Part shown: one piece after another, positions 6,267 through 22,784 of the stretch
Layout: each line of letters starts with the position of its first letter
Position numbering within the stretch: the first letter of the stretch is position 1
Virus record (IMG/VR): IMGVR_UViG_3300025141_005715
Span: 1-22,838 of that record
From: a virus
Length of the DNA: 22,838 nt
Direction: 5' to 3' (one strand)
The notes under the pieces: generated by a model
What the model was told of the DNA's origin: nothing
The model's input: only the letters and a program-made list of their open reading frames with translations
The model's database searches: none
Program-made: the position numbers and the translations under genes

Positions 6267-6469
6267 TGGGTATCTTTTTTCTTATTTACATTCTTGTTTG
6301 TTATAAAACAGGTTTAAGTGTTTACTGGTATGATTGGGTAATTTTTGGTCTCCTTGAACTATTTTCTTTGGCTAGATTATTGTATACAGAGGAAGTCAAA
6401 AAGGCTTATGATCATGGAGTCTTAGTGGGGTCTGCACAAGAAGAAGAAGATATTTTCTCAGATGTCTAA
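6266..6469 (+). CDS. Small membrane protein
   Basis: 67 residues, starting at an ATG that overlaps the previous TGA by one base, so probably translationally coupled. Two hydrophobic stretches, residues 2-13 (GIFFLIYILVCY) and 19-39 (VYWYDWVIFGLLELFSLARLL), suggest two short membrane passes; the tail is acidic (EEEDIF). It ends 8 bases inside the next gene. A membrane anchor for the surrounding glycosyltransferases is one possibility; no family recognised. Confidence 0.55.
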   Translation: MGIFFLIYILVCYKTGLSVYWYDWVIFGLLELFSLARLLYTEEVKKAYDHGVLVGSAQEEEDIFSDV

Positions 6470-7283
6470 ACTGTATTTTATTGATGATTTTCCTGATGGT
6501 GTAGGAGGATCAGAATTTGTTAACTCTGTGGTAGCGAAAAGATTCGACGCAGAGTTCTTAAAGTCTGATGAAATTCATACGCTTAAGAAAGATGATTTCT
6601 ACATCCTAGGAAATCTTTCTTTGATGCACCCTGATGCAGTTACTGCTTTAACTAAGCTTAACTATATCATCTTGGAGCATGACTACAAAATTTGCGAAAG
6701 TAGGCATCCTTGGAGATATGACAATAGTATAGTTCCCAAGGATGAGAGAATTAACTACGATCTTTATAAAAATGCTAAAGCTGTGTTTGTTCAGACTACA
6801 GACCACCAACACATCTTTGAGGATAATGATGTTGAAGCTAATTTTGTAAACTTAGAATCTAGTATCTGGTCAGACGAAGACTTGGATCTTTTAGAAAAGT
6901 TATATGTTAGTGCTATGGCAGGTAGAACTAAGTGGAAGTATGCAGTCGTTAGTTCTGAAAGTTGGATTAAAAATACAGAAGGATCTGAGACTTTTTGTAA
7001 AGCTAATCAATTAGATTATGATTTAATTTTACCAACATATAATAGACCATTTTTCTTAGAGAATTTATCTGAGTATTCTACTTTGGTATTTTTTCCTATT
7101 GCAAGGGAGTCTTGTTGTAGGCTTGTGGTGGAAGCTAGATGCTTGGGGATGAATGTTATTACTAGCAAGAACTACGGTGCTGTTTTAGAGCCTTGGTTTT
7201 CCTTATGGGGTAAAGATTTAATTAAGCTATTGAGAAAAAATACCAAGAGAAATCTTAAAACTATTGAAACATTTTTACCATGA
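6462..7283 (+). CDS. Glycosyltransferase-like protein (GT-B type), unassigned family
   Basis: 273 residues. The N-terminus LYFIDDFPDGVGGSEFVN has the GGSE element seen at the start of GT-B transferases. Later segments, YNRPFFLENLSEYSTLVFFP and CRLVVEARCLGMNVITS, resemble the donor-binding half of GT4 enzymes, where a glutamate in VVEA contacts the sugar nucleotide. It overlaps the previous gene by 8 bases and the next by 4 (ATGA at 7280). It is somewhat short for a full GT-B enzyme (about 350). The assignment to glycan transfer is by fold-like pattern and by context. Confidence 0.6.
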   Translation: MSKLYFIDDFPDGVGGSEFVNSVVAKRFDAEFLKSDEIHTLKKDDFYILGNLSLMHPDAVTALTKLNYIILEHDYKICESRHPWRYDNSIVPKDERINYDLYKNAKAVFVQTTDHQHIFEDNDVEANFVNLESSIWSDEDLDLLEKLYVSAMAGRTKWKYAVVSSESWIKNTEGSETFCKANQLDYDLILPTYNRPFFLENLSEYSTLVFFPIARESCCRLVVEARCLGMNVITSKNYGAVLEPWFSLWGKDLIKLLRKNTKRNLKTIETFLP

Positions 7284-9250
7284 TTATAGTATTAACTACA
7301 CTTTACAATTGTGAGACTTGGATTAAAAAGTGCATTAAGTCTATCCAAGATCAAAAGGAGCAGGATTTTAAGTGTTACCTCCTTAATGATATTTCTACTG
7401 ATGATTCAGTTAAGAAAGCACAAGAAGAGATCCAAGGTGATGACAGATTCGTTATTGTAAATAATACCAAGAAGTATTATCAAGGGGGAAATTACGATCA
7501 AATTATGAGATCGGATGAGGTGCAGGATGAGGATGTAGTGATTGAAGTTGATGGTGATGATTGGCTACCTGACGATGAGGTTTTCACCAGAGTCTTGAAG
7601 GTGTATGAAGATGATGAGGTGTGGCTGGCATACGGACAGTTTCAATACGATGACGGTCGCTCAGGGTTTGCGGCTCTCATGAATCCTGCAAGTTGTAGAC
7701 GAGACTTGTTTACTATCACTCACATTCGTACTTGGAAAGCTTTTCTGTGGAGGAAGATCTTACAAGAGGATCTATACTACGCTGATGGGTGGTATGCTAA
7801 AAGTGGGGGAGATACTTACTTCATGATCCCGATGTTTGAGATGGCAGGGCACCAACACACCAGATTCATGCCAGAAGTAAATTATATTTATAATGATAAT
7901 AATCCATTAAACGACAATAAAAAAAGCTTAAGTGATCAAGAAGAGTGTGCTAGATATGCAAAAAGTAAGCACCCTTATCCCCCTCTTAACCTTGCGTATA
8001 CTTATCTCACTAACACTAGATTCGATCTTATTCCAAAATATCTTTACGCTCTATATCGGGAATTAGGTATTAAATGTACTTACGGAGAGGAGATATATAA
8101 AGAGCATCTTAGGGTTTGGAATAATTTTAAAGAATTAGATAAACCTAATAAGAATACATACGAAAAGTTTAAAGATGAATTCGATAGCATTCTTGATTCC
8201 ATGAAAAAGGAAGGATTCAATAAAGAATTTCCTGTTGTAGTTTCTCAAAGAGGGAACTTGTTAAATGGAGGGCATAGGACGGTTGGTGCATTACTATACA
8301 ATTCTTCTCTTAAAACTAGAATAGGAACGGATACTGAAGGCCAAGAAGATTGTGGAAGTGCGTATTTTAGGAGGCTAGGTCTTGGAGAGGAGTGGTGTGA
8401 TGCTATAGCTCTGGAGTATGCAAAGCTAAAACCCTCCTCTAGGTTGGTTACACTCTTTCCCTCTTGTGGTGTCGTCGGTGGTGATGAAAAGATTCATGCT
8501 GCGTTTAGTATCCTTCAGAAAAAAACCAATATCTACTATATCAAAGAGGTAAGTTTAAACAAAACTGGTTTTGAGAATTTTATGAGACAGGTATATCTTG
8601 GTGAAAGCTGGTTAGGTAACCCTACTAATGGTTTTGCGGGAGCCAAAGAAAAGGCAACTCTTTGCGGAGGGGCAGGGAAGATGCTTGTGCTTTTGGTTGA
8701 GCCCCCCTCGTCGGTAGATATGGTGAAGGTAAAAGATGAAGTTAGGACTCTCTTTGGTTTAGGTAATCATTCTATACATATTAATGATACTCATGATGAG
8801 ACTCTTCGCCTTGCAAGAGTTGTTTATAACAAGAATAGTTTACACTTCTTAGAGCAGGGCCAACCTGATAAATATAACAAACTCACAGGGCTGTTATCTA
8901 TTTATGAAAAAACTCTAAGAATGGCGGGAATTTCCCCTGATATTTTCTCTATTACGGGTAGCGCAGTCCTTTCGATGTATGGGTTGCGTGAGTGTGGAGA
9001 TTTAGATTACCTTCATTTCCATAAAAATCATATTCTCACAGGTCATCCGTTGATTAATTCTCACGAAACGGAGTTAGATAAATATCCCATGCATAAGCAT
9101 GATATTCTGTTTAATCCTAACAACCATTTTTATTGGAATAATGTAAAGTTTACTTCCCTTGGTGCGGTTACCGAAATGAAAGCTTTTCGTGGAGAAGAGA
9201 AGGATAAAAGGGATATAACTTTGATGGAGTCTGTCCTTGGAAACTCCTAA
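7280..9250 (+). CDS. Multidomain glycosyltransferase: GT2 + ParB-like + nucleotidyltransferase-like
   Basis: 656 residues. Residues 1-230 are a GT-A family 2 transferase: IIVLTTLYNCETWIKKCIKSI at the start, LLNDISTDDS at 34-43, and the metal-binding VDGDDW at 90-95. Residues 310-345 contain FPVVVSQRGNLLNGGHRTVGAL, which resembles the ParB/sulfiredoxin-like nucleotide-binding domain (hydrophobic strand, then GxHRxxAL). Residues 555-650 contain ITGSAVLSMYGLRECGDLDYL with GS and DLD spaced as in nucleotidyltransferase-fold proteins, then HDILFNPNNHFYW and a terminal EKDKRDITLM. The middle region 390-500 is unassigned. The GT2 assignment is firm; the two later domains are inferred from motifs. 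The start overlaps the previous stop as ATGA. Confidence 0.75.
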   Translation: MIIVLTTLYNCETWIKKCIKSIQDQKEQDFKCYLLNDISTDDSVKKAQEEIQGDDRFVIVNNTKKYYQGGNYDQIMRSDEVQDEDVVIEVDGDDWLPDDEVFTRVLKVYEDDEVWLAYGQFQYDDGRSGFAALMNPASCRRDLFTITHIRTWKAFLWRKILQEDLYYADGWYAKSGGDTYFMIPMFEMAGHQHTRFMPEVNYIYNDNNPLNDNKKSLSDQEECARYAKSKHPYPPLNLAYTYLTNTRFDLIPKYLYALYRELGIKCTYGEEIYKEHLRVWNNFKELDKPNKNTYEKFKDEFDSILDSMKKEGFNKEFPVVVSQRGNLLNGGHRTVGALLYNSSLKTRIGTDTEGQEDCGSAYFRRLGLGEEWCDAIALEYAKLKPSSRLVTLFPSCGVVGGDEKIHAAFSILQKKTNIYYIKEVSLNKTGFENFMRQVYLGESWLGNPTNGFAGAKEKATLCGGAGKMLVLLVEPPSSVDMVKVKDEVRTLFGLGNHSIHINDTHDETLRLARVVYNKNSLHFLEQGQPDKYNKLTGLLSIYEKTLRMAGISPDIFSITGSAVLSMYGLRECGDLDYLHFHKNHILTGHPLINSHETELDKYPMHKHDILFNPNNHFYWNNVKFTSLGAVTEMKAFRGEEKDKRDITLMESVLGNS

Positions 9251-10100
9251 GGTATATTTCCCTGCGACTTGGGGGATGAGTACACAGGAGTTGTATGAGT
9301 TGTACTTACGCCTTGCACCGATTGAGAACCCTCCTGTTGAGATTGTTCCTCGTATTACAGACGCAGACTATGTGGTTGTTCAGGATATTCCTGATGAAAT
9401 TATTCCTCTTGACAAGAAGGTTATTTTCTTTCAGAGGGAACCAGACCATGTAGGTCGTTGTAGCTATAACAAAGAAAATTTGTACAAGTCCTACCACCAT
9501 GATGAAGGCGAATGTTGGCTCCCCCAGACATGGTGGTTGGGTTTTTCTTATGATGAGCTAAAGAAGCTCCCAATTCCTCCTAAAAAGCATGACCTAACCG
9601 TTGTAGATTCAGGGAGAACTGAGTTACAAGGCCATTATATTCGCTTAAACGCAATTCAAGAAGTCCTTAATAAAGTCCCCGACTTACATATGTACGGGCA
9701 TATAACACAGGGTAGAGAGCGTACTGGTCCTTTTAAATGGAGTCTTCCCCCTCGCGCTAAAGAAGAGGCTCTTTTAGATTATAGGTACACCCTTTCTATA
9801 GAAAATGGGCGCACTCCGTTCTACTTTTCAGAAAAGATTGCAGACCCAATCCTCTGTTGGAGTACTCCTATTTATTGGGGGTGTTCAGAGATAGGTAAGT
9901 TCTTACCCGCTGGCTCATTTATTGAAATTAAAGAGCTAACTTCGTCAATTGGAGAGCAGGTGCGCTCTATAATAGAGAGTGATTTCCATGAGCAGAACAT
10001 CGACGCACTTGCAGAGGCGAGGGATTTAATTTTGGATAAGTATAATTTAATTCCAACGGTAAAAACAGCAATAAGTGAGGGGGAGTTTTTTCTTGGGTAG
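9237..10100 (+). CDS. GT10-type fucosyltransferase-like protein
   Basis: 287 residues from TTG 9237, supported by GGAG at 9226-9229 with a 7-base gap; the next ATG is 13 codons further in. The C-terminal half contains YTLSIENGRTPFYFSEKI at 184-201, then STPIYWGCSEIGKFLP and SFIEI at 227-231. These match the family 10 alpha-1,3-fucosyltransferase donor-binding core (FxxxxENS, YxTEKxxD, PVYxG, SFIDI). In that family the donor is GDP-fucose; here the GDP-mannose 4,6-dehydratase in the same island makes the precursor of GDP-fucose and related deoxyhexoses, so the two fit together. No reductase completing GDP-fucose synthesis is seen in the window. It overlaps both neighbours. Confidence 0.75.
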   Translation: METPKVYFPATWGMSTQELYELYLRLAPIENPPVEIVPRITDADYVVVQDIPDEIIPLDKKVIFFQREPDHVGRCSYNKENLYKSYHHDEGECWLPQTWWLGFSYDELKKLPIPPKKHDLTVVDSGRTELQGHYIRLNAIQEVLNKVPDLHMYGHITQGRERTGPFKWSLPPRAKEEALLDYRYTLSIENGRTPFYFSEKIADPILCWSTPIYWGCSEIGKFLPAGSFIEIKELTSSIGEQVRSIIESDFHEQNIDALAEARDLILDKYNLIPTVKTAISEGEFFLG

Positions 10101-10830
10101 AACAAATCAAGGCACCCATAAGCCTCTTTCTTGGGAATCTGTTCCCGAGGAGGTCAAGGAGGAATTTTTAAAAGATTGTGGTTCTTTTCACGATTGGTAC
10201 ATCGACGGGAGTGTTCATACTCCGACTGAGTATAAGAAGGAACTAATTGATGAGTTTATAGAAGAGATAAAGAAGGGAAAACAAGGCTATTACCAGTACA
10301 CAGACACATACCTGTACACAGCGTTGGAGAAATTCCCTATAGAGGGGAAGGAAGTTGCAATTGTTGGTTCTGTTCAACCTTGGTATGAGTCTGTTGTACT
10401 AGCATATGGGGGGTTTCCCACAACTATTGAGTATAACCAGATAGAGACTGATGATCCTCGGCTAACGCTCATGACCGTTGCGGAGTTTAACAAGAAGCCT
10501 AAGAAGTTTCCTTTTGTTTTTTCTATTTCTTCTTTTGAACATGATGGTTTGGGAAGGTATGGAGATCCAATTGATCCTAATGGGGATTTAAAGGCTATGA
10601 AAAATGTAAAGGAGAATATGCTTGAAAAAGATGGGATTCTATTTCTTGCGGTCCCCGTAGGGATGGATAAGCTTGTTTTCAATGCTCATAGGATATACGG
10701 CAATCGTTTGGAGAAACTTTCAGAGGGGTATGAGATATTAGGTTTTGTGCCTATGCAAACATCTGAGAGAGTAAAGCTAGACACTATCAACGGTGATTTT
10801 CAACCTATTTTGGTTCTTAGAAACAAATGA
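10093..10830 (+). CDS. DUF268 family protein (methyltransferase-like)
   Basis: 245 residues from TTG 10093, chosen because GGGGGAG at 10079-10085 is 7 bases upstream; a GTG at 10075 in the same frame is an alternative. The hallmark SSFEHDGLGRYGDPIDPNGD lies at about 146-165, followed by LEKDGILFLAVPVGMDKLVF and NAHRIYG, which together define DUF268. An earlier VAIVGSVQPWYE at 88-99 resembles the nucleotide-binding loop of SAM-dependent methyltransferases. Members occur in surface-polysaccharide loci, and modification of a sugar is likely. The next gene overlaps as ATGA at 10827. Confidence 0.75.
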   Translation: MGRTNQGTHKPLSWESVPEEVKEEFLKDCGSFHDWYIDGSVHTPTEYKKELIDEFIEEIKKGKQGYYQYTDTYLYTALEKFPIEGKEVAIVGSVQPWYESVVLAYGGFPTTIEYNQIETDDPRLTLMTVAEFNKKPKKFPFVFSISSFEHDGLGRYGDPIDPNGDLKAMKNVKENMLEKDGILFLAVPVGMDKLVFNAHRIYGNRLEKLSEGYEILGFVPMQTSERVKLDTINGDFQPILVLRNK

Positions 10831-11546
10831 AGATCTTTATAACAACCTGCAATACTCACTTGCATTTGGTTCCTATTTTTTGCCATCTTTTTAATAAGTA
10901 TTGGGGAGCGGAACAACCCGTCACTCTGTTAGGGTATAACCATCCCCAGTCGTATAAGTTCTTTAAGCTACCTGAAAATTTTAGCTTTGAGCAGTTGAAT
11001 GGTGGGGACCAAGGAAGAGTTGAGGATTTCAGCAACCATCTCCAGGCTTATTTTAGTACGGTCGAAGATGAGTATTTTATTTGGGGGGTAGAGGATACTT
11101 TTTTAAAGAGTCCCGTGAACTTTGATGTCTTGAATGCTTTTTTTAAAGTCTGTGAGGATGCCAACAACACTAAAATTGGAAGAATTGATCTTACGGAGGG
11201 GATGTCTCATCGTCCCACCAGCCTGTGGAAGACTGTGGAGGGAATTGATATTCTAGTTAATCCCCAAGACGCAGAGTGGAGAGTAGCTACGCAAATATCT
11301 ATTTGGAATAAGGAATATCTTCTCTCTAGTCTTAAACCTAATCGAAGTCCCTGGGATGTTGAGATCCTAGCTTTACAAGAAGCACTTCATGATGGTTGGG
11401 ATATTTTAGGTACTCACAGAGAAGTTAAGCTCGCTGTCACTAAAAACGAGGGCGTTACAAGACACGATATTTATAAATTAAATGTCAATGGCATGACACC
11501 AGACACACTACAAGAAATTCAGGAGATTATAAATGATAAAAATTAA
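10827..11546 (+). CDS. Putative glycosyltransferase-like protein
   Basis: 239 residues. The start MKIFITTCNTHLHLVPIFC, followed by a strand-like VTLLGY, resembles a GT-A nucleotide-sugar-binding N-terminus. EDEYFIWGVEDTFLKSPVN near 83-101 has acidic pairs in the position of a DxD metal site, and DAEWRVATQISIWNKEYL at about 148-165 could be the acceptor side. No classical family can be assigned by eye. Context inside the glycan island is the main support. It may alternatively be a non-catalytic relative. Confidence 0.5.
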   Translation: MKIFITTCNTHLHLVPIFCHLFNKYWGAEQPVTLLGYNHPQSYKFFKLPENFSFEQLNGGDQGRVEDFSNHLQAYFSTVEDEYFIWGVEDTFLKSPVNFDVLNAFFKVCEDANNTKIGRIDLTEGMSHRPTSLWKTVEGIDILVNPQDAEWRVATQISIWNKEYLLSSLKPNRSPWDVEILALQEALHDGWDILGTHREVKLAVTKNEGVTRHDIYKLNVNGMTPDTLQEIQEIINDKN

Positions 11547-11943
11547 ATCTAAAGTAAAGGATAAGGTTTTGCATCTCGTTTGTCGTTTAGAAGAATTTAC
11601 AGAAGACCGCACAGAGCTTGTGTCTCCCGACCAGTTTATCCAATGTGCATTCTTAAGATTGTCGGAAGGTAAGACCTTCAGACCACACAAACATATTTGG
11701 AAAAGCCCTAACTTCGATAGAGTTATAGCTCAAGAAAGTTGGGTAGTTATTAAAGGCAGCGTTAAGGTTTTCTTTTACGATATAGATGGAGAGCTATTAG
11801 AAACTCATATTCTGAAAGCAGGAGATGCTTCTTTTACTTTAGAAGGAGGGCATACCTATGAGATATTGGAAGACCATACACTAGTCTACGAGTATAAGAC
11901 TGGTCCTTACGAGGGGCAAGAATTAGATAAGGTATTTATATGA
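11533..11943 (+). CDS. Cupin-fold protein (WbuC/FdtA-like)
   Basis: 136 residues with GGAG upstream. A single cupin barrel with candidate metal ligands H52 and H54 (FRPHKH), E68 and H107 (EGGHTYE). The order RPHKH, ESWVVIKGSVKVFFYD, LKAGDASFTLEGGHTYEIL is typical of WbuC-type cupins found in O-antigen and capsule clusters, and related to the FdtA-like sugar 3,4-ketoisomerases. If the latter, it could act on the 4-keto-6-deoxy sugar made by the dehydratase at 14470. The exact reaction is not visible. It overlaps both neighbours by 4-14 bases. Confidence 0.7.
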   Translation: MIKIKSKVKDKVLHLVCRLEEFTEDRTELVSPDQFIQCAFLRLSEGKTFRPHKHIWKSPNFDRVIAQESWVVIKGSVKVFFYDIDGELLETHILKAGDASFTLEGGHTYEILEDHTLVYEYKTGPYEGQELDKVFI

Positions 11944-12467
11944 AGTTACATTTAGGCTGTGGTAAAAGAGATTTCGGATCTGACTGGGTTCATATTGATC
12001 AATGTGAATTTCCTCATGTAGTTCATCAGGATGTTACTAACCTTCCTTATGAGGATGATAGTTGTGATCTTATTTATGCCTCTCATCTTTTAGAGTATTT
12101 TGATGGAGGAGAGGTTCTAGGGGTGTTAGATGAATGGAATAGAGTACTTAAGCCTGGAGGGGTTTTACGAATAGCTGTTCCTGATTTTGAAGCAATGAGT
12201 ACTTTATATAACTCAGGAAAGAACTTAGATTTATTTTTAGGTCCCTTGTACGGAAAGATGGGCGACCCTCCTATTTACCATAAAATGGTATATGATTATA
12301 GATCCCTTAAAAGATTACTTGAGAGCGCAGAGTTTTCTGATATTAAAAGATACAACTGGAGAGATACAGATCATTCTAATTTTGATGATCATTCACAAGC
12401 ATATATCCCCCACATGGATAAAGACAAGGGAACTTTAATTAGTTTAAATGTAGAGGCATCGAAATGA
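11940..12467 (+). CDS. SAM-dependent methyltransferase (class I, type 11-like)
   Basis: 175 residues. LHLGCG at 3-8 is the SAM-binding loop, VHIDQ at 17-21 gives the acidic residue that binds the ribose, DVTNLPYEDDSCDLIYASHLLEY spans motifs II-III, and RVLKPGGVLRIAVPDFEAM at 68-86 is the usual motif after the fourth strand. Predicted soluble. In this context it probably methylates a sugar, sugar nucleotide or other small metabolite. AAGG upstream supports the ATG, which overlaps the cupin stop as ATGA. Slightly short but complete as a Rossmann core. Confidence 0.85.
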   Translation: MKLHLGCGKRDFGSDWVHIDQCEFPHVVHQDVTNLPYEDDSCDLIYASHLLEYFDGGEVLGVLDEWNRVLKPGGVLRIAVPDFEAMSTLYNSGKNLDLFLGPLYGKMGDPPIYHKMVYDYRSLKRLLESAEFSDIKRYNWRDTDHSNFDDHSQAYIPHMDKDKGTLISLNVEASK

Positions 12468-13198
12468 AAAACATATATTACGGACAAGAAGGACAGGACT
12501 CTATAATCTCACAGTTTTTTGAGGCTAAAGGAATTAAAAATGGTAAATTCTTAGATGTAGGATCATTAGATGGCATTAGGTTTAGCAACACTTTGCGTTT
12601 AGAACAAGCAGGGTGGTCTGGTATTTGTGTGGAAATGCACCCCTCTTACTATGAGCTACTTATAGAGAATAGACCCAATTCAGTCTGCTATAGTTGTGGA
12701 GCGTCTGATGAGGATAAAGTTAAGCGTACTGTTTCCTTGAATTGGAGAGCTTCTATGAGTACCACAGACTTTAGCTTAGAGGAAGAGTTTGGTAGAGACG
12801 AGCGATACTACGGTGATCGAAAAGAGAAGGAGATTAATGGATTTCTTAATGGGCATCACGAAGTCGAGTTACGGACTTTAGATAGTATTCTGACCGAGAA
12901 CAAGGAGGAGTTCTCTAGCTTGGATTTTGTTTCAATTGACATTGATGGTTCCGAGAGGAAGGCTCTCCCTCATTGTGATTTGAATGAGTGTGCCCCTGAT
13001 CTTCTTAGCTTGGAGTATTCCGTTGTCGGAGATCAGTTCGTCATGGAGTATGCTGCTAAGTATGGACTTTACCCTTCTCGGAGAATAGGCGCGGATATCC
13101 TCTTTGTGAGGAATCAAGAGGATAGTGACCTCTTAAACTCTTTATTAGTGCAGGGAGAGAGGTATCACAATAACCACCCAGCCACAGGAGGCGACTAA
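12464..13198 (+). CDS. FkbM family SAM-dependent methyltransferase
   Basis: 244 residues; GAGG upstream of ATG 12464. SAM-binding FLDVGSLDGIRFSNT at 29-43, VEMHPSYYELL at 56-66, the FkbM-type RTLDSIL at 137-143 and FVSIDIDGSERKAL at 155-168, and SLEYS near the end. This is the standard arrangement of FkbM methyltransferases, which O-methylate sugars or polyketides. The second methyltransferase in a row suggests a glycan with at least two methylated positions or two substrates. The ATG overlaps the previous stop. Confidence 0.85.
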   Translation: MKNIYYGQEGQDSIISQFFEAKGIKNGKFLDVGSLDGIRFSNTLRLEQAGWSGICVEMHPSYYELLIENRPNSVCYSCGASDEDKVKRTVSLNWRASMSTTDFSLEEEFGRDERYYGDRKEKEINGFLNGHHEVELRTLDSILTENKEEFSSLDFVSIDIDGSERKALPHCDLNECAPDLLSLEYSVVGDQFVMEYAAKYGLYPSRRIGADILFVRNQEDSDLLNSLLVQGERYHNNHPATGGD

Positions 13199-13872
13199 TG
13201 CAAGATGTTCCCGAGCTTTTTGGTATTCCTCGCAGCGGAAGCACCGCAATTTACAATATTTGTAGAATAATCTATGGAGATGAATTACTTAAACGACCAA
13301 CATCTCCTCATGAGTATTTTGGGGGGGATAGCTCTGTGATTGCTACTTATAGAGATTTTCGTGATTGCTTAGTATCTCAATGGAGAGCCCATATTCTTAC
13401 TTTAGAAGGTCGCTCTTTTGATGACGAATCAGAAGCTATTGAAATGAGGCTTGACCATGCTTTGTTTCATGCAAATGATTTTAAAAGAGCTATTAATAGT
13501 TTAGATCATTTTAAAGCAGACAAGGATCGAGGACGAAATGTACTTTTTTTGAGGTATGAAGATTTTTTTAATAGTGAGGTGGGAGATTTAAACTTTGAAT
13601 ATATCTTTGAGCAGATGGAGACTTTTCGAGGAAAGGAGATCCCTCATCTGACCAAGAAATATATTACTGAAGAATGTAATTTTAAAAAAGTAAAGGAACA
13701 CTCACAACAGTTCGATGATTTTGATCAGTATGATCCTCAAACTCTGATTCATGGGAAGCACTTATATACAGGTAAAGCTGGAACATGGAAGACTCTTATT
13801 GCTGATGAATATCATGAAGTGGTGACTGCATCATTACGCGATGAATTAACTAGGTGGTGCTATGAACTTTGA
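13198..13872 (+). CDS. PAPS-dependent sulfotransferase-like protein
   Basis: 224 residues with AGGAGG ahead of ATG 13198. The P-loop-like 5'-phosphosulfate site GIPRSGST is at 9-16. The 3'-phosphate site is VIATYRDFRDCLVSQW at 47-62 (YRDxRD is the family signature). FLRYEDF at 117-123 is the strand and loop that follows. TGKAGTWKTL at 191-200 matches the C-terminal RKGxxGxWK loop that closes over PAPS. All main sulfotransferase elements are present in the right order and the length is only slightly short. It would transfer sulfate from PAPS to a hydroxyl or amine, most likely on the glycan made by its neighbours. The substrate cannot be predicted. Confidence 0.8.
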   Translation: MQDVPELFGIPRSGSTAIYNICRIIYGDELLKRPTSPHEYFGGDSSVIATYRDFRDCLVSQWRAHILTLEGRSFDDESEAIEMRLDHALFHANDFKRAINSLDHFKADKDRGRNVLFLRYEDFFNSEVGDLNFEYIFEQMETFRGKEIPHLTKKYITEECNFKKVKEHSQQFDDFDQYDPQTLIHGKHLYTGKAGTWKTLIADEYHEVVTASLRDELTRWCYEL

Positions 13873-14455
13873 TGTGGTAAAAGAGTTTGAAGATAGTATA
13901 GCTGAGTTTTATGGTTCTAAGTACGCAGTAGCTACGGACTGCTGTACTCACGCTATAGAGTTATGCCTAAGGTACACTAATCCAGCATCAGTCTTTTTTC
14001 CCATTAGAACATATATATCTATTCCTTTTTTGGGAGAAAAGTTGGGCATACCTTGGAGTTGGAACATAGCAGAGTGGAAAGATTCTTATTTTATAGGAAA
14101 CACCAGCATAGTAGACGCAGCAGTTCTTTGGAAAGAGAATAGTTATATCCCAGGCTCTTTTATGTGTTTAAGTTTTCAGTTCCAAAAACACCTTAGTCTT
14201 GGCAGAGGTGGGATGATACTTACAGACGATAAAGAAGCAGCCCAAGAATTAAAGAAAATGTCATATGACGGGAGAGAGCCTGACAAGCCCTGGAGAGAAC
14301 AAAACATCTCCTCTATGGGATACCATTACTACATGACCCCAGAGATAGCACAAAAGGGGTTGGACCGTTTAGAAGAAGCCATAGCTACTCCTCCCCGTAA
14401 GTGGCAATATACTGATTGGCCTGATTTAAAAAGTATGAAAGTCTTTCAAAAGTAA
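13862..14455 (+). CDS. Shortened DegT/DnrJ/EryC1/StrS aminotransferase-like protein
   Basis: 197 residues, about half the usual length (about 370). The N-terminus FEDSIAEFYGSKYAVATDCCTHAIELCLRY is the family's first substrate-binding segment. SIVDAAVLW at 82-90 matches the family's EDaAqa segment with Asp85 in place to hold the pyridoxal nitrogen. SFQFQKHLSLGRGGMILTDD at 104-123 is the cofactor-lysine segment (Lys109), and MGYHYYMTPEIAQKGLDRL is the usual following helix. The stretch between the first and second segments is greatly shortened and the C-terminal domain is missing. It may be a minimal aminotransferase for a deoxyamino sugar, or a non-catalytic relic; the key residues are kept. 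It overlaps the sulfotransferase gene by 11 bases. Confidence 0.65.
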   Translation: MNFDVVKEFEDSIAEFYGSKYAVATDCCTHAIELCLRYTNPASVFFPIRTYISIPFLGEKLGIPWSWNIAEWKDSYFIGNTSIVDAAVLWKENSYIPGSFMCLSFQFQKHLSLGRGGMILTDDKEAAQELKKMSYDGREPDKPWREQNISSMGYHYYMTPEIAQKGLDRLEEAIATPPRKWQYTDWPDLKSMKVFQK

Positions 14456-14472
14456 AACTATAATATTGTATG
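14435..14472 (+). promoter_or_regulatory. Candidate leaderless promoter of gmd
   Basis: TATAAT at 14459-14464 preceded by C and followed by A, with exactly 5 bases before ATG 14470. ATGAAA at 14435-14440 lies 18 bases upstream and is a fair -35. No Shine-Dalgarno is visible before the ATG. Transcription from this box would begin at or next to the start codon. Confidence 0.55.
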
Positions 14473-15432
14473 AATAAAACAGCATTAATCACAGGTATAG
14501 CAGGACAGGATGGAAGCTACCTTTCCGAATATCTTTTATCAAAGGGTTATGAGGTTCATGGCATTATTCGTCGTAACTCAGTAGCAGAGAATCAAGATGA
14601 TAGAATTAAAGACTTAAATGTTACAACTCATTATGGAGATCTTCTTGATATTCATTCACTAAATAGGATTATAACACAGGTTCAGCCCCATGAAGTTTAT
14701 AATCTTGGAGCCCAGAGCCATGTAAGGATTAGTTTTGATGTACCTTCTTTTACTATTCAAACGAATGCTATGGGTGTTCTTAATATGTTAGAGGTGTGTA
14801 GAGCGTTGGTGCCTCATGTTAAGTTTTATCAAGCGAGTTCTTCAGAGATGTTTGGAAACTCTGTTGATGAGGACGGTTATCAGAGAAAGACTACTCCAAT
14901 GATGCCTACTTCTCCTTATGGGTGTGCCAAGGTTATGGGATACAATTTGGTGCGTCACTACAGAGCAGCATATGAGATGCATACCTGTAATGGTATTCTT
15001 TTTAATCATGAGTCTCCCCGCAGAGGATCTAACTTTGTTACAAATAAGATTGTTAAAGGGGCTGTAGAAATTAAAAGGGGTTTAAGAAAAGAACTAGCTT
15101 TAGGCAATCTTGAAGCCTCTAGAGATTGGGGACATTCTAAAGATTATGTCCGTGCCATGCATAAGATCATTAACCATGAAGTGGCTGATGATTGGACGGT
15201 AGCAACAGGAGAGAGCCGCACTATTAGAGAGATGTGTGATGTTACTTTTTCAATTCTTGATTTAGATTATAGAGATCATGTCACGCAAGACCCAAAGTTC
15301 TTCCGACCCCAAGAGCTTAATTTCCTTAAAGGTGATTCCTCTGATATTCGTTCTAAGTTAAACTGGACCCCTCGCTACTCCTTTAGGTCTATGGTAGAGG
15401 AGATGGTTAATCATTGGATGGAAAAGATTTAA
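14470..15432 (+). CDS. gmd: GDP-mannose 4,6-dehydratase
   Basis: 320 residues. The short-chain dehydrogenase fold begins TALITGIAGQDGSYLSEYLL, with the NADP-binding TGIAGQDG at 8-15 and the GMD-type IIRRNS at 32-37. HYGDLLD at 54-60, YNLGAQSHVRISF at 77-89 and QASSSEMFG at 121-129 follow; Ser124 and Glu126 take the place of the catalytic Thr and Glu. Tyr150 and Lys154 in SPYGCAK are the other catalytic residues. NHESPRRGSNFVTNKI is the substrate loop and SRDWGHSKDYVRAM is diagnostic. It converts GDP-mannose to GDP-4-keto-6-deoxymannose, the precursor of GDP-fucose, rhamnose or perosamine. It probably supplies the GT10-like enzyme or the aminotransferase upstream. Slightly shorter than bacterial GMD (about 370). 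It starts without a Shine-Dalgarno. Confidence 0.93.
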   Translation: MNKTALITGIAGQDGSYLSEYLLSKGYEVHGIIRRNSVAENQDDRIKDLNVTTHYGDLLDIHSLNRIITQVQPHEVYNLGAQSHVRISFDVPSFTIQTNAMGVLNMLEVCRALVPHVKFYQASSSEMFGNSVDEDGYQRKTTPMMPTSPYGCAKVMGYNLVRHYRAAYEMHTCNGILFNHESPRRGSNFVTNKIVKGAVEIKRGLRKELALGNLEASRDWGHSKDYVRAMHKIINHEVADDWTVATGESRTIREMCDVTFSILDLDYRDHVTQDPKFFRPQELNFLKGDSSDIRSKLNWTPRYSFRSMVEEMVNHWMEKI

Positions 15433-16433
15433 TGAAGTGTGGAATTTTAAGAGGGAATGATTTACATACTTATAGGCTCTCCCAAGGTTTAATGTCTTGT
15501 GGCATAATGGTTGAGTATTTAACAGGCACCCGAGTAGCTCCTAATGTTTATGATATAGTTTTTGTTGACCCTTCTTATCCTGAGGAAGTGCAGCCTAACA
15601 TTGGGCGAAGAGTACACTTTTTCGACTGTGAGGATGATCCCAGACACTTCGATCCTAGCGCAGCTTATTATTCTCTAAAGGATCATGTGGAATACTATGC
15701 CAAATTAGTATATGTAGAAGATGATCGGAAAGATGGAATTAAAAATGTTGCTTTCCCGATTTCTCAGTTCATGACCTTACAACAATTGGCTATGACCGAC
15801 GACACCTCAATGAAATCTTCTTTTATTCCTATCCATATAGGTGTTCCTACTTGGCTTAGACCTCATGTACCCGTAGAGGGGGGGATTTATCATTTTGATG
15901 AGGATCAGGATATTTATTCTATAGAGAAACCGAAGGAAGAGGAAAATAATCTTAGATACAATCAGCGTATTGATTGGCTTCTCTCTTTGGAAAAAAATAA
16001 TATTCCCTTTATGGGAGGATTGGTGTTTAAAGAAGAGGAAGAGTGTTACTCCCAGGACTTTGTGGCGAGTGTATTTGGAGAAGGGATAAGGAAGTGGGCT
16101 CATCCCAGGATTAATTACATGCAAAATCTAGCTTCTTTGGCTCAATATAAATTAGCTCTATGCCCCGCAGGACATGATAGAATTTCATGGAGAACCTTTG
16201 ATATAATGGCTGTAGGTTCTATTCTCTTCTGGACAGATGTGGAGGATAGAAAAATGCTATATATGCCACAGTCTTATGTAAAAGTCAAAGACGGTTGTGA
16301 TCTAGGTACTGTATTAGAGGAACATGAGTCTGATTATTGTGAGTTAGTACAGGAAGCTAGGAAAAATGTAGAGTTAATACGATCTTTAACTCCTCCTAAA
16401 GTTAAAGAAGATTTTTTGAAACAGATGCTATAA
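15432..16433 (+). CDS. Glycosyltransferase-like protein with exostosin-like C-terminus
   Basis: 333 residues from ATG 15432, which overlaps the gmd stop (TAATG); an in-frame TTG at 15414 is less likely. The N-terminal half has a GT-B-like beginning (GILRGNDLHTYRLSQGLMSCGI). The C-terminal half contains YKLALCPAGHDRISWRTFDIM at about 239-259 followed by AVGSILFW and later YVKV. This resembles the donor-binding end of exostosin-like and other GT-B transferases (CPxGxxxxSxRxxExxxxGxIP). The middle carries acidic stretches. Probably the last glycosyltransferase of the island. The TAA stop at 16431-16433 lies inside the TATAAT box before mazG. Confidence 0.6.
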   Translation: MKCGILRGNDLHTYRLSQGLMSCGIMVEYLTGTRVAPNVYDIVFVDPSYPEEVQPNIGRRVHFFDCEDDPRHFDPSAAYYSLKDHVEYYAKLVYVEDDRKDGIKNVAFPISQFMTLQQLAMTDDTSMKSSFIPIHIGVPTWLRPHVPVEGGIYHFDEDQDIYSIEKPKEEENNLRYNQRIDWLLSLEKNNIPFMGGLVFKEEEECYSQDFVASVFGEGIRKWAHPRINYMQNLASLAQYKLALCPAGHDRISWRTFDIMAVGSILFWTDVEDRKMLYMPQSYVKVKDGCDLGTVLEEHESDYCELVQEARKNVELIRSLTPPKVKEDFLKQML

Positions 16434-17458: not shown

Positions 17459-17495
17459 TTGAGTTCTACGGGTATTTACACTATAATAGTATATG
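17459..17495 (+). promoter_or_regulatory. Candidate leaderless promoter of the recA/uvsX gene
   Basis: TTGAGT at 17459-17464, a 17-base spacer and TATAAT at 17482-17487, then 5 bases to ATG 17493. This is the strongest of the leaderless-type promoters because the -35 is recognisable at ideal spacing. There is no Shine-Dalgarno before the ATG. Confidence 0.65.
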
Positions 17496-18485
17496 GATTC
17501 AGGAGTTTTAGAGCGTCTTAAAAACGCAGGATTATTGTCAGAGCAACCATTAAATCTAGGGTTTGTTTCTACGGGTAACTATGCGTTAAATAAGGTCATT
17601 TCTGGTGACTACACTAATGGGGTGCCTATTGGAATGATTACGCAATTTCACGGGGAGTCCTCGACTGCAAAAACTGTGTTTGCTACGCATATCCTGAAAG
17701 AAGCACAGGCAGCAGGATACTATTCTATGCTGGTTGATTCAGAAAATGCCTACAACCCTGAGTTTGCTGCTCATCTAGGGATTGACCCCAAGAAGCTGAT
17801 CTACTCTGCACCTGAAACATTGGAGCAGTCGTTTGATGTTATTAAGAATACTGTTACGGAGATCAGAGAGAGTGATGAAGATACTCCTATAGTTATTGCG
17901 TATGATAGTATTGCTGTGTCCCCCTCAAAAGCTGAGTTTGAGGCTGAGAACTTTGATGGTAATAATATGGTGGGTGCCGTAAGGGCGAAAGCTACGGGGG
18001 CTTGTTTGAGAAAGATTAACCCCATCCTACGCACTAAGAAGGTTGCACTAGTAATCGTTAACCAAATTAGGAATAAGGTAGGAGTGATGTACGGCAGTCC
18101 TGACACTATGGCAGCAGGAGGGAAGTCCTTGGAGTATTACTTAGGTGTAAACCTTAAATGTATCTCTAACAAGACTAGCGATCTAATTAAAGACGAACGA
18201 AAGAATGTTGTAGGTATTGAAGGTAAGGTACGCAACACTAAGAACAAGGTTTCTCTCCCTCATAGAGAGTGTGAGTTTGAACTTTATTATAACGAGGGAC
18301 TAAGCCCCTACGCAGGATTACTTAAGCTCTTGGAGATGGATGGGTTGGTAACTCGTTCGGGAGCTTGGTACACCGTGACCGATAGTGAAAAGAAGTTTCA
18401 GTCCAAGGATTTTCAAGATCTCCTTGTGGGGAAAGAAGAGGGATTTGAATCAATTTACAAAGAATTAGGAGAAAAAAATGAGTGA
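17493..18485 (+). CDS. recA: RecA/UvsX-like recombinase
   Basis: 330 residues. Walker A is GESSTAKT at 54-61 (GPESSGKT in RecA). LVDSENAYNPEFAAHLGID at 80-98 matches the RecA strand after the P-loop helix. Walker B is PIVIAYDSI at 132-140. VNQIRNKVGVMYGSP at 189-203 and the GGKSLEYY that follows form the conserved NQxR segment and DNA-binding loop 2. The C-terminus GLSPYAGLLKLLEMDGLVTRSGAWY is also typical. It forms filaments on single-stranded DNA for strand exchange and repair, working with the SSB. The gene has no Shine-Dalgarno and begins just after a -10 box. The next gene overlaps by 8 bases. Confidence 0.92.
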   Translation: MDSGVLERLKNAGLLSEQPLNLGFVSTGNYALNKVISGDYTNGVPIGMITQFHGESSTAKTVFATHILKEAQAAGYYSMLVDSENAYNPEFAAHLGIDPKKLIYSAPETLEQSFDVIKNTVTEIRESDEDTPIVIAYDSIAVSPSKAEFEAENFDGNNMVGAVRAKATGACLRKINPILRTKKVALVIVNQIRNKVGVMYGSPDTMAAGGKSLEYYLGVNLKCISNKTSDLIKDERKNVVGIEGKVRNTKNKVSLPHRECEFELYYNEGLSPYAGLLKLLEMDGLVTRSGAWYTVTDSEKKFQSKDFQDLLVGKEEGFESIYKELGEKNE

Positions 18486-18790: not shown

Positions 18791-19579
18791 ATGGTTATCA
18801 AGAACGAAGAACTGCTACGCACCCATGCTCCCGCTGCTTTTGCTACGGAGCCCGAAGATGGACAGGTATCTAGTCGATACTCTTTCCTCCCTACTACTGA
18901 GATCTTGGAGATCCTTCAAGATGAGGGCTGGACTACTTGGAAAGCCCAGCAGGTAAGTCCTCGTAAATGGAGTCGAGGTCATGCCAAGCATATTATCCGT
19001 CTCAAGCATGAAGACATGGATATGCAATCTTTTGGGGTGGGTGATTCCTTCCCTGAGATGCTTCTTATGAATGCTCACAATGGAACTGGTTCTTACGATC
19101 TTATGGGAGGTATCTTCCGTATGGTCTGTTCTAACGGCATGGTTATCTCTGAGAGCGACTTTGGCAAGATCCACATCCGACACATCGGATTTGAGCCTAC
19201 GCAGGTTGTGGAGGCTTCCAAGGAGCTTATCATGAACTCCTCTAGGGTTGCTGATAAGATTGGAACTTGGAAAGAAGTTTCGCTTACTCCCCGTGCAAGG
19301 TTGGATTTCTTTACAGATGCTGCAAAGATTCGTTTCGAGAATCCTGATGATGGAGTTGTGCAGGACATATCTCAGTCTCGCAGAGAAGCAGATAAAGGAC
19401 TGGATCTTTGGTCTACCTTTAATGTGGCTCAAGAGAACCTAATTCGTGGAGGTTTCCGTAACGGCTCTACTAACCGTATGGTGCGCCCCATCACTTCTAT
19501 TCAAAAAGATGTGAAATTTAATTCAGAACTGTGGGACTTGGCTAGTAAATATAGTGAGGGTTTGGTTCCTTCCAACTAA
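18791..19579 (+). CDS. DUF932 family protein
   Basis: 262 residues with an ideal AAGGAG Shine-Dalgarno. SSRYSFLPTTEILEIL at 27-42, followed by GWTTWKAQQ and RGHAKHIIRL, and then FRMVCSNGMVIS at 109-120 with a later IRHIG, fit the DUF932 pattern common in phages and plasmids. The family has no settled biochemical function. The gene stands alone between a strong promoter and a strong terminator, so its product is probably made in large amounts. Its codons are less AT-biased than those of neighbouring small genes (many CTC, CGT, ATC), also consistent with high expression. It may act in DNA replication or protection. Confidence 0.75.
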   Translation: MVIKNEELLRTHAPAAFATEPEDGQVSSRYSFLPTTEILEILQDEGWTTWKAQQVSPRKWSRGHAKHIIRLKHEDMDMQSFGVGDSFPEMLLMNAHNGTGSYDLMGGIFRMVCSNGMVISESDFGKIHIRHIGFEPTQVVEASKELIMNSSRVADKIGTWKEVSLTPRARLDFFTDAAKIRFENPDDGVVQDISQSRREADKGLDLWSTFNVAQENLIRGGFRNGSTNRMVRPITSIQKDVKFNSELWDLASKYSEGLVPSN

Positions 19580-19627
19580 TTCCTTTGGGAATTAGGGGAG
19601 GGGCGTTTGCTCCTCCCCTATTTTTTT
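19578..19627 (+). terminator. Intrinsic terminator after the DUF932 gene, with a preceding small hairpin
   Basis: The main stem pairs TAGGGGAGGGGC at 19593-19604 with GCTCCTCCCCTA at 19609-19620 (12 pairs, one G-U) around a GTTT loop, followed by seven T. A 6-pair hairpin, AATTCC at 19578-19583 with GGAATT at 19588-19593, lies directly upstream and overlaps the stop codon. Confidence 0.9.
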
Positions 19628-20371: not shown

Positions 20372-20522
20372 CTTACTTGATTGGGACGATATTTCTGTGA
20401 ACTATCTTCCTTTTCCTGGAGAAATGACATTAAAAGAATATGAAAATCTTTTAACCTATTTTGTACAAAAATGGAGAGATGACCGTGCCAACTACTTACA
20501 CATTGAAAAAATCAGTACTTGA
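20343..20522 (+). CDS. Small hypothetical protein
   Basis: About 59 residues if it starts at TTG 20343; the true start is uncertain. The stretch LLDWDDISVNYLPFPGEMTLKEYENLLTYF and the following WRDDRANYLHIEKI look like a real folded protein rather than a random frame. It overlaps both the preceding charged protein and the next gene. No Shine-Dalgarno stands out beyond GAAGAG-like sequence directly before the start. Function unknown. Confidence 0.4.
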   Translation: MKNFQEEKNNLLDWDDISVNYLPFPGEMTLKEYENLLTYFVQKWRDDRANYLHIEKIST

Positions 20523-20814
20523 TTATAATAGAGTACAGAAGATATGTAAACAAGTTTTAGAGGATTCAAAAGAAGATAGAGAGTTAGCTTTAGGGCTACA
20601 TCGTTATTTTCGTGAGCTAGTGGAAGAAAACCCACAGGACGGGGTAGCAAAAAATCTTATGGTAGATTGTTTAAAGCTTGCCCAGTCCTCTAAAACGAAT
20701 ACTCATAAGACTTTAGATCTTTTAATTAAGCTAGAGTCTGCTTTTACGAAGGACTCTAGTAAAGGATCCGATGAGAGTATGTTTAATCAATTGAGTGATA
20801 TTTTACATGACTGA
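20479..20814 (+). CDS. Small helical hypothetical protein
   Basis: 111 residues from ATG 20479; a TTG at 20461 in the same frame would add six residues. Almost entirely helical by composition (LDYNRVQKICKQVLEDSKED, LALGLHRYFRELVEENP, NLMVDCLKLAQSS, LDLLIKLESAF). The pattern of short helices with a long coiled region is reminiscent of small terminase subunits or other phage oligomeric adaptors, but no diagnostic motif is present. It overlaps the next gene by 8 bases, so it may work with the Clp-like ATPase. Confidence 0.5.
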   Translation: MTVPTTYTLKKSVLDYNRVQKICKQVLEDSKEDRELALGLHRYFRELVEENPQDGVAKNLMVDCLKLAQSSKTNTHKTLDLLIKLESAFTKDSSKGSDESMFNQLSDILHD

Positions 20815-22177
20815 AGTAAATTATAAAATAGTTTGCCCTCCGCTTAACCTAGTTCTTATCATAAAAAAATATGATATGAGAGAGGAAAAAAAGGTTTGGC
20901 AAAAGCTCAGAACTAAAGTTCAGGGAGCAACGGAACCTATTAATATTAATGCTTACATGGAAGCAATTCTTAGACTGTTCCTCGCAGATCCAGACCCCTT
21001 TTTTGATAATCTAGACGAAGACGATAGATCTGTGATAGTTAAGGCAGCTTACGAAGCAGTTGTTAGTCTGTATCCTATTTTCCAATTAGAATGGATATGC
21101 AATGAATTAAATACCAGAGTTTTCTCAGAATCTATCCGAGCTTTATTTAGTGACGACATACTAGACCAAGCAGATAATCCTTTCCCAGATGATTCACCTC
21201 TTGGTCTTGCTTTACTAGACAGAGAGAGACTTAGTATATTAGAAAAGTTCTTGTATAAAAATATTATAGGACAAGGGGAAGCTATCTCTAAAATTATAAA
21301 TTCCTTAAAGGTTGTAGCTGCTGGGCTAGGAGATTTTTGTTCATTTTTCTTCATTGGACCTACAGGGGTGGGCAAGACTCAGCTTGCTAGGATGTTGGGG
21401 AAACAATTAGGTGGTAACTTTTTTAAGATTAATTGTGGTGAGTATTCTTCTGGGCATGAATACGCGAAGCTAATTGGATCTCCCCCAGGGTATGTGGGAC
21501 ACACAGATAAGAGTATTTTGGCAGAGAAGGCAGAAGAATCTAGTCGATGGGTTTTTATATTTGATGAGATTGAGAAAGCCCATCACAAGTTCTATGATTT
21601 CTTATTGTCATTGTTAGATGATGGAACTGTCACGGATAACATGGGACGAGAGCTAGATTTTTCTGATTCCATTTTTATCTTTACTTCCAACCAAGGAATG
21701 TCTGATTTAAAGTTAGGGAGAAGTCTAGGCTTTGATAGGACTGAGAGGGATTACTCTGATTTGAAAGAAGATGTGAGAGAGTCTGTTAAGAAGCATTTCC
21801 CTCCCGAATTTCTAAATAGAATAGACGAGTTCATTATCTTTAATGAGCTTAGTAAGAAGGACATCCGTGAAATTGTATCCCTGGAACTCAAAGGGATTCC
21901 AATTAAGAAGACTAAATCTCTCCTTGATTTTGTGGTCAAGGGCGGGTACTCGAAAGAGTATGGGGCTCGTAATGTTAAGAGGTTTATTAAGAGTAATATC
22001 TCCGTTAAAGTGGCTGAAGCTATTCTAGACAAACAGGTTCCTAAAAAGAAGGGAACCATGTATAGTTCTAGTGTAAAAAACGGAGAACTTCAAATTATTA
22101 ATACCACTAATTACGAGGAGAAGAAAGATGGTTGGACCGAACAATGTGATTCACCGCAGACGAGCGGCACGAAATGA
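20807..22177 (+). CDS. Clp/Hsp100-type AAA+ unfoldase with one ATPase ring
   Basis: 456 residues from ATG 20807. Residues 1-140 are an N-terminal domain of unknown type, not the Clp N-domain. The AAA-2 core follows: IIGQGEAISKI at 153-163, Walker A GPTGVGKT at 184-191, the pore loop GSPPGYVGH at 224-232, Walker B VFIFDEIEKAH at 249-259, sensor 1 TSN at 293-295, the arginine finger in FLNRID (Arg338) and the sensor 2 GARNVKR (Arg388). It matches the second ATPase domain of ClpC/ClpB most closely. LGF at 307-309 lies in the loop where ClpA, ClpC and ClpX carry their ClpP-docking tripeptide. It would unfold or remodel proteins, alone or with host ClpP. No peptidase gene is seen in the window. 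Overlaps the preceding gene; no Shine-Dalgarno. Confidence 0.85.
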   Translation: MTEVNYKIVCPPLNLVLIIKKYDMREEKKVWQKLRTKVQGATEPININAYMEAILRLFLADPDPFFDNLDEDDRSVIVKAAYEAVVSLYPIFQLEWICNELNTRVFSESIRALFSDDILDQADNPFPDDSPLGLALLDRERLSILEKFLYKNIIGQGEAISKIINSLKVVAAGLGDFCSFFFIGPTGVGKTQLARMLGKQLGGNFFKINCGEYSSGHEYAKLIGSPPGYVGHTDKSILAEKAEESSRWVFIFDEIEKAHHKFYDFLLSLLDDGTVTDNMGRELDFSDSIFIFTSNQGMSDLKLGRSLGFDRTERDYSDLKEDVRESVKKHFPPEFLNRIDEFIIFNELSKKDIREIVSLELKGIPIKKTKSLLDFVVKGGYSKEYGARNVKRFIKSNISVKVAEAILDKQVPKKKGTMYSSSVKNGELQIINTTNYEEKKDGWTEQCDSPQTSGTK

Positions 22178-22301
22178 GGTAAAAGAAACCAGACAGGCTG
22201 AAGCTGCGGAGGCTGAAGTTATTCAGGAGGAGGTGATCCAAGAACCTGCACCACAACCTGTCGCTAAGAAAAAATTGTCTAAATGGAAAAAGAAAAAGTA
22301 G
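22128..22301 (+). CDS. Small charged hypothetical protein overlapping the Clp-like gene
   Basis: 57 residues, with GAGGAG at 22115-22120 at good distance from ATG 22128. It overlaps the last 50 bases of the Clp-like gene in another frame. It begins MVGPNNVIHRRRAARNEV, continues with an alanine and glutamate-rich helix (QAEAAEAEVIQEEV), a PAPQP hinge and a very basic end KKKLSKWKKKK. No family recognised. The strong ribosome-binding site and clear charge design support a real gene despite the overlap. Confidence 0.55.
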   Translation: MVGPNNVIHRRRAARNEVKETRQAEAAEAEVIQEEVIQEPAPQPVAKKKLSKWKKKK

Positions 22302-22347
22302 TCCAACAGCAGGGGGTCTACGCCTTTCCTGCGGTGGGAGCTTCGCA

Positions 22348-22390
22348 GAGGAATTGCTTACTAATAATAGGTGATTCCTCTTTAATTTTC
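22348..22390 (+). terminator. Terminator-like hairpin before the tRNA cluster
   Basis: GAGGAATTGCTTA at 22348-22360 pairs with TAGGTGATTCCTC at 22368-22380 (13 pairs, three of them G-U) around a 7-base loop, followed by TTTAATTTTC. Weaker than the other two terminators because the T-run is interrupted. A short CTGCG/CGCAG stem lies just upstream (22329-22347). Confidence 0.6.
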
Positions 22391-22417: not shown

Positions 22418-22493
22418 GGGGCAGTAGCTCATCGGTTAGAGCAGAGTCCTTATAAGGCTTTGGTAGGTAGTTCAACTCTACCCTGCCCTACCA
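22418..22493 (+). tRNA. tRNA-Ile(UAU)
   Basis: 76 bases with encoded CCA. Acceptor GGGGCAG with CTGCCCT (G1 opposite U72), D arm GCTC/GAGC, anticodon arm GAGTC-CTTATAA-GGCTT giving anticodon UAU, 5-base variable loop, T arm GGTAG-TTCAACT-CTACC, discriminator A and CCA. It would read AUA directly. Most bacteria read AUA with a lysidine-modified CAU anticodon instead. Confidence 0.88.
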
Positions 22494-22494
22494 A

Positions 22495-22570
22495 GGGACG
22501 GTAGCCCAATGGCAGAGGCAACAGACTTAAAATCTGTCAAGTGCGGGTTCGAATCCCGCTCGTCCTACCA
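22495..22570 (+). tRNA. tRNA-Leu(UAA) with short variable loop
   Basis: 76 bases with encoded CCA, one base after the previous tRNA. Acceptor GGGACGG with TCGTCCT, D arm GCCC...AGGC, anticodon arm ACAGA-CTTAAAA-TCTGT giving anticodon UAA, T arm GCGGG-TTCGAAT-CCCGC, discriminator A73. The variable loop is only 5 bases (CAAGT), whereas leucine tRNAs normally have a long variable arm. The anticodon says leucine; charging should not be assumed. Confidence 0.85.
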
Positions 22571-22577
22571 ATTACAC

Positions 22578-22706
22578 TATAAAAACTTGCTCTCTAAGGG
22601 CTCCAAATTTAGGGGGTCATATGGGTCGTCCCTGTACATCAAAGTCCAGCAGGGACGATCCTAGAGCGTCACTTGGACATTACTTAGGCTATTTCCCCCA
22701 AAAACA
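22578..22706 (+). ncRNA. Candidate structured non-coding RNA between tRNA-Leu and tRNA-Arg
   Basis: No credible gene lies here. A -10-like TATAAA at 22578-22583 in the context ACACTATAAAA resembles the boxes at 17482 and 22786. Downstream, GGGTCGTCCCTG at 22623-22634 pairs with CAGGGACGATCC at 22650-22661 (12 pairs). The 15-base loop contains GTCCA at 22644-22648, which can pair with TGGAC at 22674-22678 to form a pseudoknot. GGGGG at 22612-22616 could pair with CCCCC at 22695-22699, enclosing the whole element. The exact ends and any function are unknown; it might instead be a processing element for the tRNA transcript. Confidence 0.45.
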
Positions 22707-22707
22707 A

Positions 22708-22784
22708 GCTCCCATAGCATAATTGGATAATGCAACAGACTTCTAATCTGTAGACTTCAGGTTCGAATCCTGATGGGAGTACCA
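22708..22784 (+). tRNA. tRNA-Arg(UCU)
   Basis: 77 bases with encoded CCA. Acceptor GCTCCCA with TGGGAGT (G1 opposite U72), D arm GCAT/ATGC with a 9-base loop, anticodon arm ACAGA-CTTCTAA-TCTGT giving anticodon UCU, 5-base variable loop, T arm TCAGG-TTCGAAT-CCTGA. It would read AGA and AGG; AGA is a frequent arginine codon in this window's genes. Confidence 0.9.

Follow-up and report, generated by a model that had tools for sequence, protein, structure and literature searches.

A single-ring Clp-type unfoldase of uncultured phages carries a conserved, putative ClpP-docking tripeptide

Results

The unfoldase gene and its motor module

A gene in an IMG/VR virus record, all 22,838 bases of which make up the window analysed here, probably encodes a single-ring Clp unfoldase that docks host ClpP through [LVMI]GF loops and degrades proteins chosen by the phage. 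The gene and the parts of its product are as follows.

20807-22177, + strand: phage Clp unfoldase, 456 aa, intact ORF with an ATG start; an N-domain joined to a single AAA+ module of the Clp D2 type
20807-21145, + strand: N-domain, residues 1-113, a beta-hairpin (5-10, 15-20) followed by helices; outside known families
21146-21217, + strand: linker, residues 114-137, low model confidence
21218-21841, + strand: AAA+ large subdomain, residues 138-345, from profile and PDB sequence matches
21356-21379, + strand: Walker A GPTGVGKT, residues 184-191, K190 invariant in the family
21488-21499, + strand: pore loop 1 GYVG, residues 228-231, with an aromatic residue at Y229 that is Tyr in 72 sequences and Phe in 4
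21560-21583, + strand: Walker B FDEIEKAH, residues 252-259, D253 and E254 invariant
21683-21697, + strand: sensor 1 TSNQG, residues 293-297, N295 invariant
21698-21751, + strand: ClpP-docking-type loop, residues 298-315, predicted flexible
21725-21733, + strand: putative docking tripeptide LGF, residues 307-309, [LVMI]G[FY] in 74/74, with codon usage and controls given below
21818-21820, + strand: arginine finger R338, in EFLNRI, invariant
21842-22051, + strand: D2-small subdomain, residues 346-415, with sensor 2 R388 (GAR 386-388)

The AAA+ core was identified as a Clp D2 module by its matches to Pfam AAA_2 (E 1.3e-38) and ClpB_D2-small (E 1.4e-11), and it carries the Walker A and B motifs, sensors, arginine finger and aromatic pore loop of the Clp/Hsp100 D2 type. 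Together with the best PDB sequence match of the protein, B. subtilis ClpC (E 3e-57), these matches bear out the ClpC/ClpB type that had been assigned to the core in the initial annotation. An AlphaFold2 model was obtained with a mean pLDDT of 79, and its top fold matches were ClpC chains, mostly out of ClpC-ClpP complexes. The protein has a single P-loop, with neither a D1 ring nor an M-domain. That it is a complete Clp motor with all catalytic motifs in place is well supported at the level of sequence. A clamp-loader or helicase-loader identity was rejected, the corresponding profile matches being far below those to Clp, and PADLOC matches to PDC-M37B and DolB, which fall mostly within the AAA+ region, were taken as generic ATPase similarity. 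The protein was also rejected as a ClpB disaggregase, since it has the tripeptide and a single AAA+ module.

The docking tripeptide is maintained across a divergent family

The segment SLGF, at residues 306-309 (DNA 21722-21733), lies after sensor 1 and before the arginine finger; both the translation and the alignment with ClpC confirm this placement, which had been proposed beforehand. In the alignment with B. subtilis ClpC, LGF stands opposite VGF, the ClpP-docking tripeptide of ClpC. Such an LGF loop is a published marker separating ClpP partners from ClpB (PMC10149685).

Relatives were collected by scanning IMG/VR with the unfoldase protein, which gave 32 relatives, and with the protein of the neighbouring gene p111, which yielded 80 loci; 78 of these were new, and all have the unfoldase adjoining p111. 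Of the 76 unique unfoldase sequences, including that of the window, 74 span the docking site. The [LIVM]-G-[FL] motif that marks a ClpP partner between sensor 1 and the arginine finger was found in 74/74, with one Tyr for Phe; these sequences share ancestry, so they do not represent 74 independent events, and their pairwise identity is as low as 35%. The tripeptide is LGF in 36, VGF in 25, MGF in 10, IGF in 2 and VGY in 1, making G308 invariant and F309 replaced once, by Tyr. Its flanks are hypervariable, with an entropy of 2.6-3.2 bits at positions 305-306 and 310-313. All four glycine codons are used for G308 (GGC 22, GGA 22, GGG 21, GGT 9) and both phenylalanine codons for F309 (TTT 42, TTC 31). 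This abundant synonymous change under constant residues indicates that the amino acids themselves are under purifying selection.

In the same alignment, E. coli ClpA and ClpC-type cellular sequences have the tripeptide, whereas E. coli ClpB is gapped at this place, as are the other ClpB-type sequences, in agreement with the earlier statement that ClpB lacks it. A buried LGF, or one outside an exposed loop, had been named beforehand as an argument against docking. Judged by pLDDT, the AlphaFold2 model gives no indication of either: the values of <50 at residues 304-308 and 310-312 suggest that the docking loop is flexible. From conservation and alignment, it is well supported that the tripeptide is of the ClpP-docking type and kept by selection.

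These data bear on the alternative that the unfoldase is a ClpP-independent remodeller, unfolding or disassembling complexes (for example of replication or recombination) alone, with the loop serving another partner or persisting as a relic. The position of the gene beside uvsX and the lack of a peptidase encoded nearby would fit such a role, and phage Mu, which uses ClpX as a remodeller without ClpP, provides a precedent. However, a relic would be expected to have decayed at this divergence, with identities down to 35% and a long stem, yet the tripeptide persists in 74/74 sequences while its flanks are free to vary; moreover ClpB, a Clp ATPase with no ClpP partner, has lost the docking loop. 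We therefore regard a ClpP-independent remodeller as unlikely.

No recognisable ClpP is encoded by the phages

The ClpP profile PF00574 gave no match in 54 distinct phage records (23 + 31), which are mostly fragments; a very divergent phage peptidase would escape this profile. One of these records (G033, 129.9 kb) is seemingly a complete genome, because its two ends share a 574-bp overlap (89% identity) and lie contiguously inside a related 130.6-kb record (G035). A ClpP partner would thus most simply be that of the host. Nearly all bacteria have ClpP, and on this ground the host is assumed to have it. The absence of recognisable phage ClpP suggests that the phage motor probably commandeers host ClpP. 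The docking-loop reading put forward in the initial annotation is accordingly favoured by the alignment position, the near-invariance of the tripeptide, the predicted flexibility of the loop, the contrast with ClpB, and the failure to find phage ClpP.

A tripeptide without a phage ClpP would likewise be selected if the ring were a decoy, occupying host ClpP and displacing ClpX, ClpA or ClpC so that host proteolysis is inhibited. For a pure competitor, however, the invariant Walker A and B residues, the pore-loop aromatic and the arginine finger would be superfluous, as would the conserved N-domain and the linked p111, and we consider a decoy very improbable.

The N-domain is outside known families

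A beta-hairpin followed by helices was modelled with confidence for residues 1-113. No Pfam or PHROGs profile was matched significantly by the first ~136 residues of the window protein; comparison of the N-domain with the PDB and fold libraries also gave nothing significant, and scans with the N-domain only gave no loci beyond those already known. In relatives, the N-domain had weak profile matches only, the best being to phrog_9236 ‘pyrophosphatase’, which was matched in three relatives (best E 2e-4, one run singly E 0.027) and which we treated as chance.

About 10 of the best 50 viral-library fold matches of the N-domain were named tail assembly chaperone, all with E >0.05, a lead only. The lead raises the alternative of a virion-assembly unfoldase, in which a tail-assembly-chaperone-like N-domain would bring tail or baseplate proteins to the ring, with or without ClpP. 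The Clp genes of jumbo phages do sit among tail genes. Nevertheless, no profile match of the N-domain to tail chaperones was found in Pfam or PHROGs, and hhalign of the N-domain to gp26-type baseplate proteins (PF12322), tried on account of a shared sequence pattern with T4 gp26, gave a probability of 0.1%; a gp26 relationship was rejected also because separate PF12322 genes exist in these phages. Furthermore, the unfoldase gene lies in the replication block of these phages, with the gp26-type and terminase genes elsewhere. A role in virion assembly is for these reasons quite improbable. The architecture of the protein raises the idea, put forward already in the initial annotation, that its N-domain is an adaptor for the selection of host proteins, which the data neither support nor exclude.

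p111 is strictly linked to the unfoldase

The gene upstream of the unfoldase, and its junction with it, are as follows.

20479-20814, + strand: p111, 111 aa, no known family; shares 8 nt with the start of the unfoldase gene and may be an adaptor or a dedicated substrate
20807-20814, + strand: ATGACTGA, overlap of the p111 stop and unfoldase start, with likely translational coupling

p111 was found upstream of the unfoldase on the same strand in 105/105 loci, some of which are two views of one contig. The commonest overlap, 8 nt, suggests translational coupling. A programmed frameshift from p111 into the unfoldase is not supported, because the spacing ranges from -17 to +8 nt. p111 itself matched neither a known family nor, by sequence, a known fold. 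Several identities were tried and rejected: a T4 gp16-type small terminase (hhalign probability 0.3%), a relative of the N-domain (no similarity found) and ClpS (no family match; a partial, below-cut-off ClpS match elsewhere in G033 and G035 was set aside). In the terL regions of two relatives (L214, L217) a small terminase was not recognised next to the large terminase, and PF11053 (small terminase) had no match in nine records of this clade. The adaptor-then-motor order of E. coli clpS-clpA resembles that of p111 and the unfoldase, a parallel in arrangement only, as p111 is not ClpS-like. p111 is an equally good adaptor candidate to the N-domain.

Genomic setting

Profile searches showed T4-like replication genes in the window, and the setting of the unfoldase gene includes the following.

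838-2133: DnaB-like helicase, profile match
2472-2933: UvsY-like protein, profile match
3001-3732: gp32-like SSB, profile match
17493-18485: UvsX, profile match
19593-19620, + strand: strong terminator-like hairpin, after the DUF932 gene and upstream of the p111/unfoldase transcription unit; consensus scan only
22347-22381, + strand: terminator-like hairpin downstream of the unfoldase, ahead of the tRNA genes; consensus scan only
22418-22784: three tRNA genes, 3' of the unfoldase

Across the family, with some losses, the genes follow the order uvsX, small gene, (DUF932), small genes, p111, unfoldase. Because the unfoldase lies close to uvsX and other replication genes, outside the terminase/baseplate region, action early or midway in infection is suggested. 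The DUF932 protein (18791-19579) is encoded within this conserved block, with uvsX on one side and the unfoldase on the other. Between gp32 and uvsX (4307-16433) lie about a dozen glycosyltransferase-, methyltransferase-, sulfotransferase- and GDP-mannose-dehydratase-like ORFs, identified from translations read by eye, and the content of this block varies among relatives. A 57-codon Ala/Glu/Lys-rich ORF (22128-22301, MVGPNNVIHRRR...KKKK) starts inside the 3' end of the unfoldase in another frame.

Phylogeny and relation to known Clp systems

In 10/10 records tested there was one unfoldase-type gene per record. When 84,980 bacterial and archaeal species genomes were searched, the best 80 relatives aligned only from residue 132 onward, and among 50,697 phage records there were no matches spanning 80% of the unfoldase. 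In a maximum-likelihood tree of D2 modules the family came out as a single clade with 100/100 support, and its stem measured ~2 changes per site; the jumbo-phage ClpA-like ATPases and cellular ClpB/ClpC lay outside it. The tree was midpoint-rooted and the stem is long, so that any choice of sister group is tentative. Judged from these sequences, the family is a deep, widespread clade of uncultured phages with a single AAA+ ring. It was not found in the open-access literature searched, a weak sign only of its being undescribed. In one relative (L168, 6338-7664) the unfoldase frame is seemingly broken before residue 226, possibly by an assembly error or a frameshift.

Bacterial ClpC (ClpC/MecB of Bacillota, ClpC1 of Actinomycetota) shares with the phage unfoldase the D2 module and the alignment position of the tripeptide, whereas the phage protein lacks the D1 ring, M-domain and ClpC N-domain, has an unrelated N-domain instead and belongs to a separate deep clade. 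Nor does it qualify as a ClpA/ClpC orthologue: the ClpA model scored 224 bits against an NCBIfam cut-off of 993, there is one P-loop and the N-domain is unrelated. ClpX, like the phage unfoldase, has one AAA+ ring and a docking loop of the [LIV]G[FL] type between sensor 1 and the arginine finger, but the phage core is of the ClpA/B/C D2 type and no zinc-binding N-domain was seen. The ClpX model had no match in the window protein at E 0.001, and in one relative it matched with E 3e-4 compared with 1e-64 for the ClpA model.

The jumbo-phage ClpA-like ATPases (phrog_4871; GAP32, RaK2, Atu_ph07, XaC1, Phosso) are likewise phage-encoded and most have the tripeptide at the same place. Unlike the single-module unfoldase, they have ~780 aa and two AAA+ modules, and the tree places them with E. 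coli ClpA. The window unfoldase matched phrog_4871 across the D2 of the latter only, and the two fall in separate clades. In GAP32, XaC1 and RaK2 (L039, L040, L042) the two-ring ClpA-like gene lies on the opposite strand, flanked by a tail sheath/virion structural gene on one side and a very large structural gene on the other. Of the three, XaC1 has an intact tripeptide (VGF), while those of GAP32 (LGM) and RaK2 (IGV) are degenerate. A 735-kb uncultured phage (LR756501, L043) has a two-ring ClpB-like ATPase without the tripeptide that groups with cellular ClpB-type sequences, which indicates that huge phages carry both Clp types.

The ClpI proteins of Actinomycetota are Clp unfoldases distinct from ClpB/ClpC whose partnership with ClpP was judged by the LGF loop (PMC10149685). 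They are cellular two-ring enzymes, some with and some without the motif, while all sampled members of the phage family have it. Jumbo phages encode ClpP, ClpS, ClpA and ClpX (PMC7824862), and Gp53 of SPO1 is an adaptor-like modulator of host ClpCP (PMC6873191). SPO1 Gp53 as an adaptor of host ClpC, and jumbo-phage ClpS and ClpP as adaptor and peptidase, resemble the unfoldase in exploiting the host Clp system; however, they supply adaptors or a peptidase, whereas in the family described here the phage supplies the motor. Phages are thus already known to encode Clp ATPases, ClpP, ClpS and adaptors of ClpC, and the family described here varies this theme with a single-ring motor, a novel N-domain and a linked p111.

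Discussion

In the mechanism we favour, docking of host ClpP by a phage motor, the unfoldase would assemble into a hexamer and use its [LVMI]GF loops to dock the host ClpP peptidase, to which it would pass phage-chosen proteins for degradation. Substrates may be selected by the N-domain, by p111 or by both, as the architecture and strict linkage suggest. Timing would be coupled to replication, and the task might be, for example, clearance of a host inhibitor or of a spent phage replication or regulatory protein. ClpP-binding Clp ATPases can also act alone.

A broader proposal, which we hold only tentatively, is that p111 and the single-ring motor form an undescribed two-gene module that makes host ClpP phage-programmed, and that this is a core function of mostly marine uncultured phages in a lineage separate from ClpX. 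If so, the phage would bring the motor and adaptor and the host the peptidase. A tripeptide kept without a recognisable phage peptidase would directly exemplify a virus motor plugged into a host protease. What such a phage must destroy would then become a trappable question, by ClpP-trap proteomics, and the compact single-ring D2 motor with its new recognition domain would offer a system for studying how unfoldases dock to peptidases.
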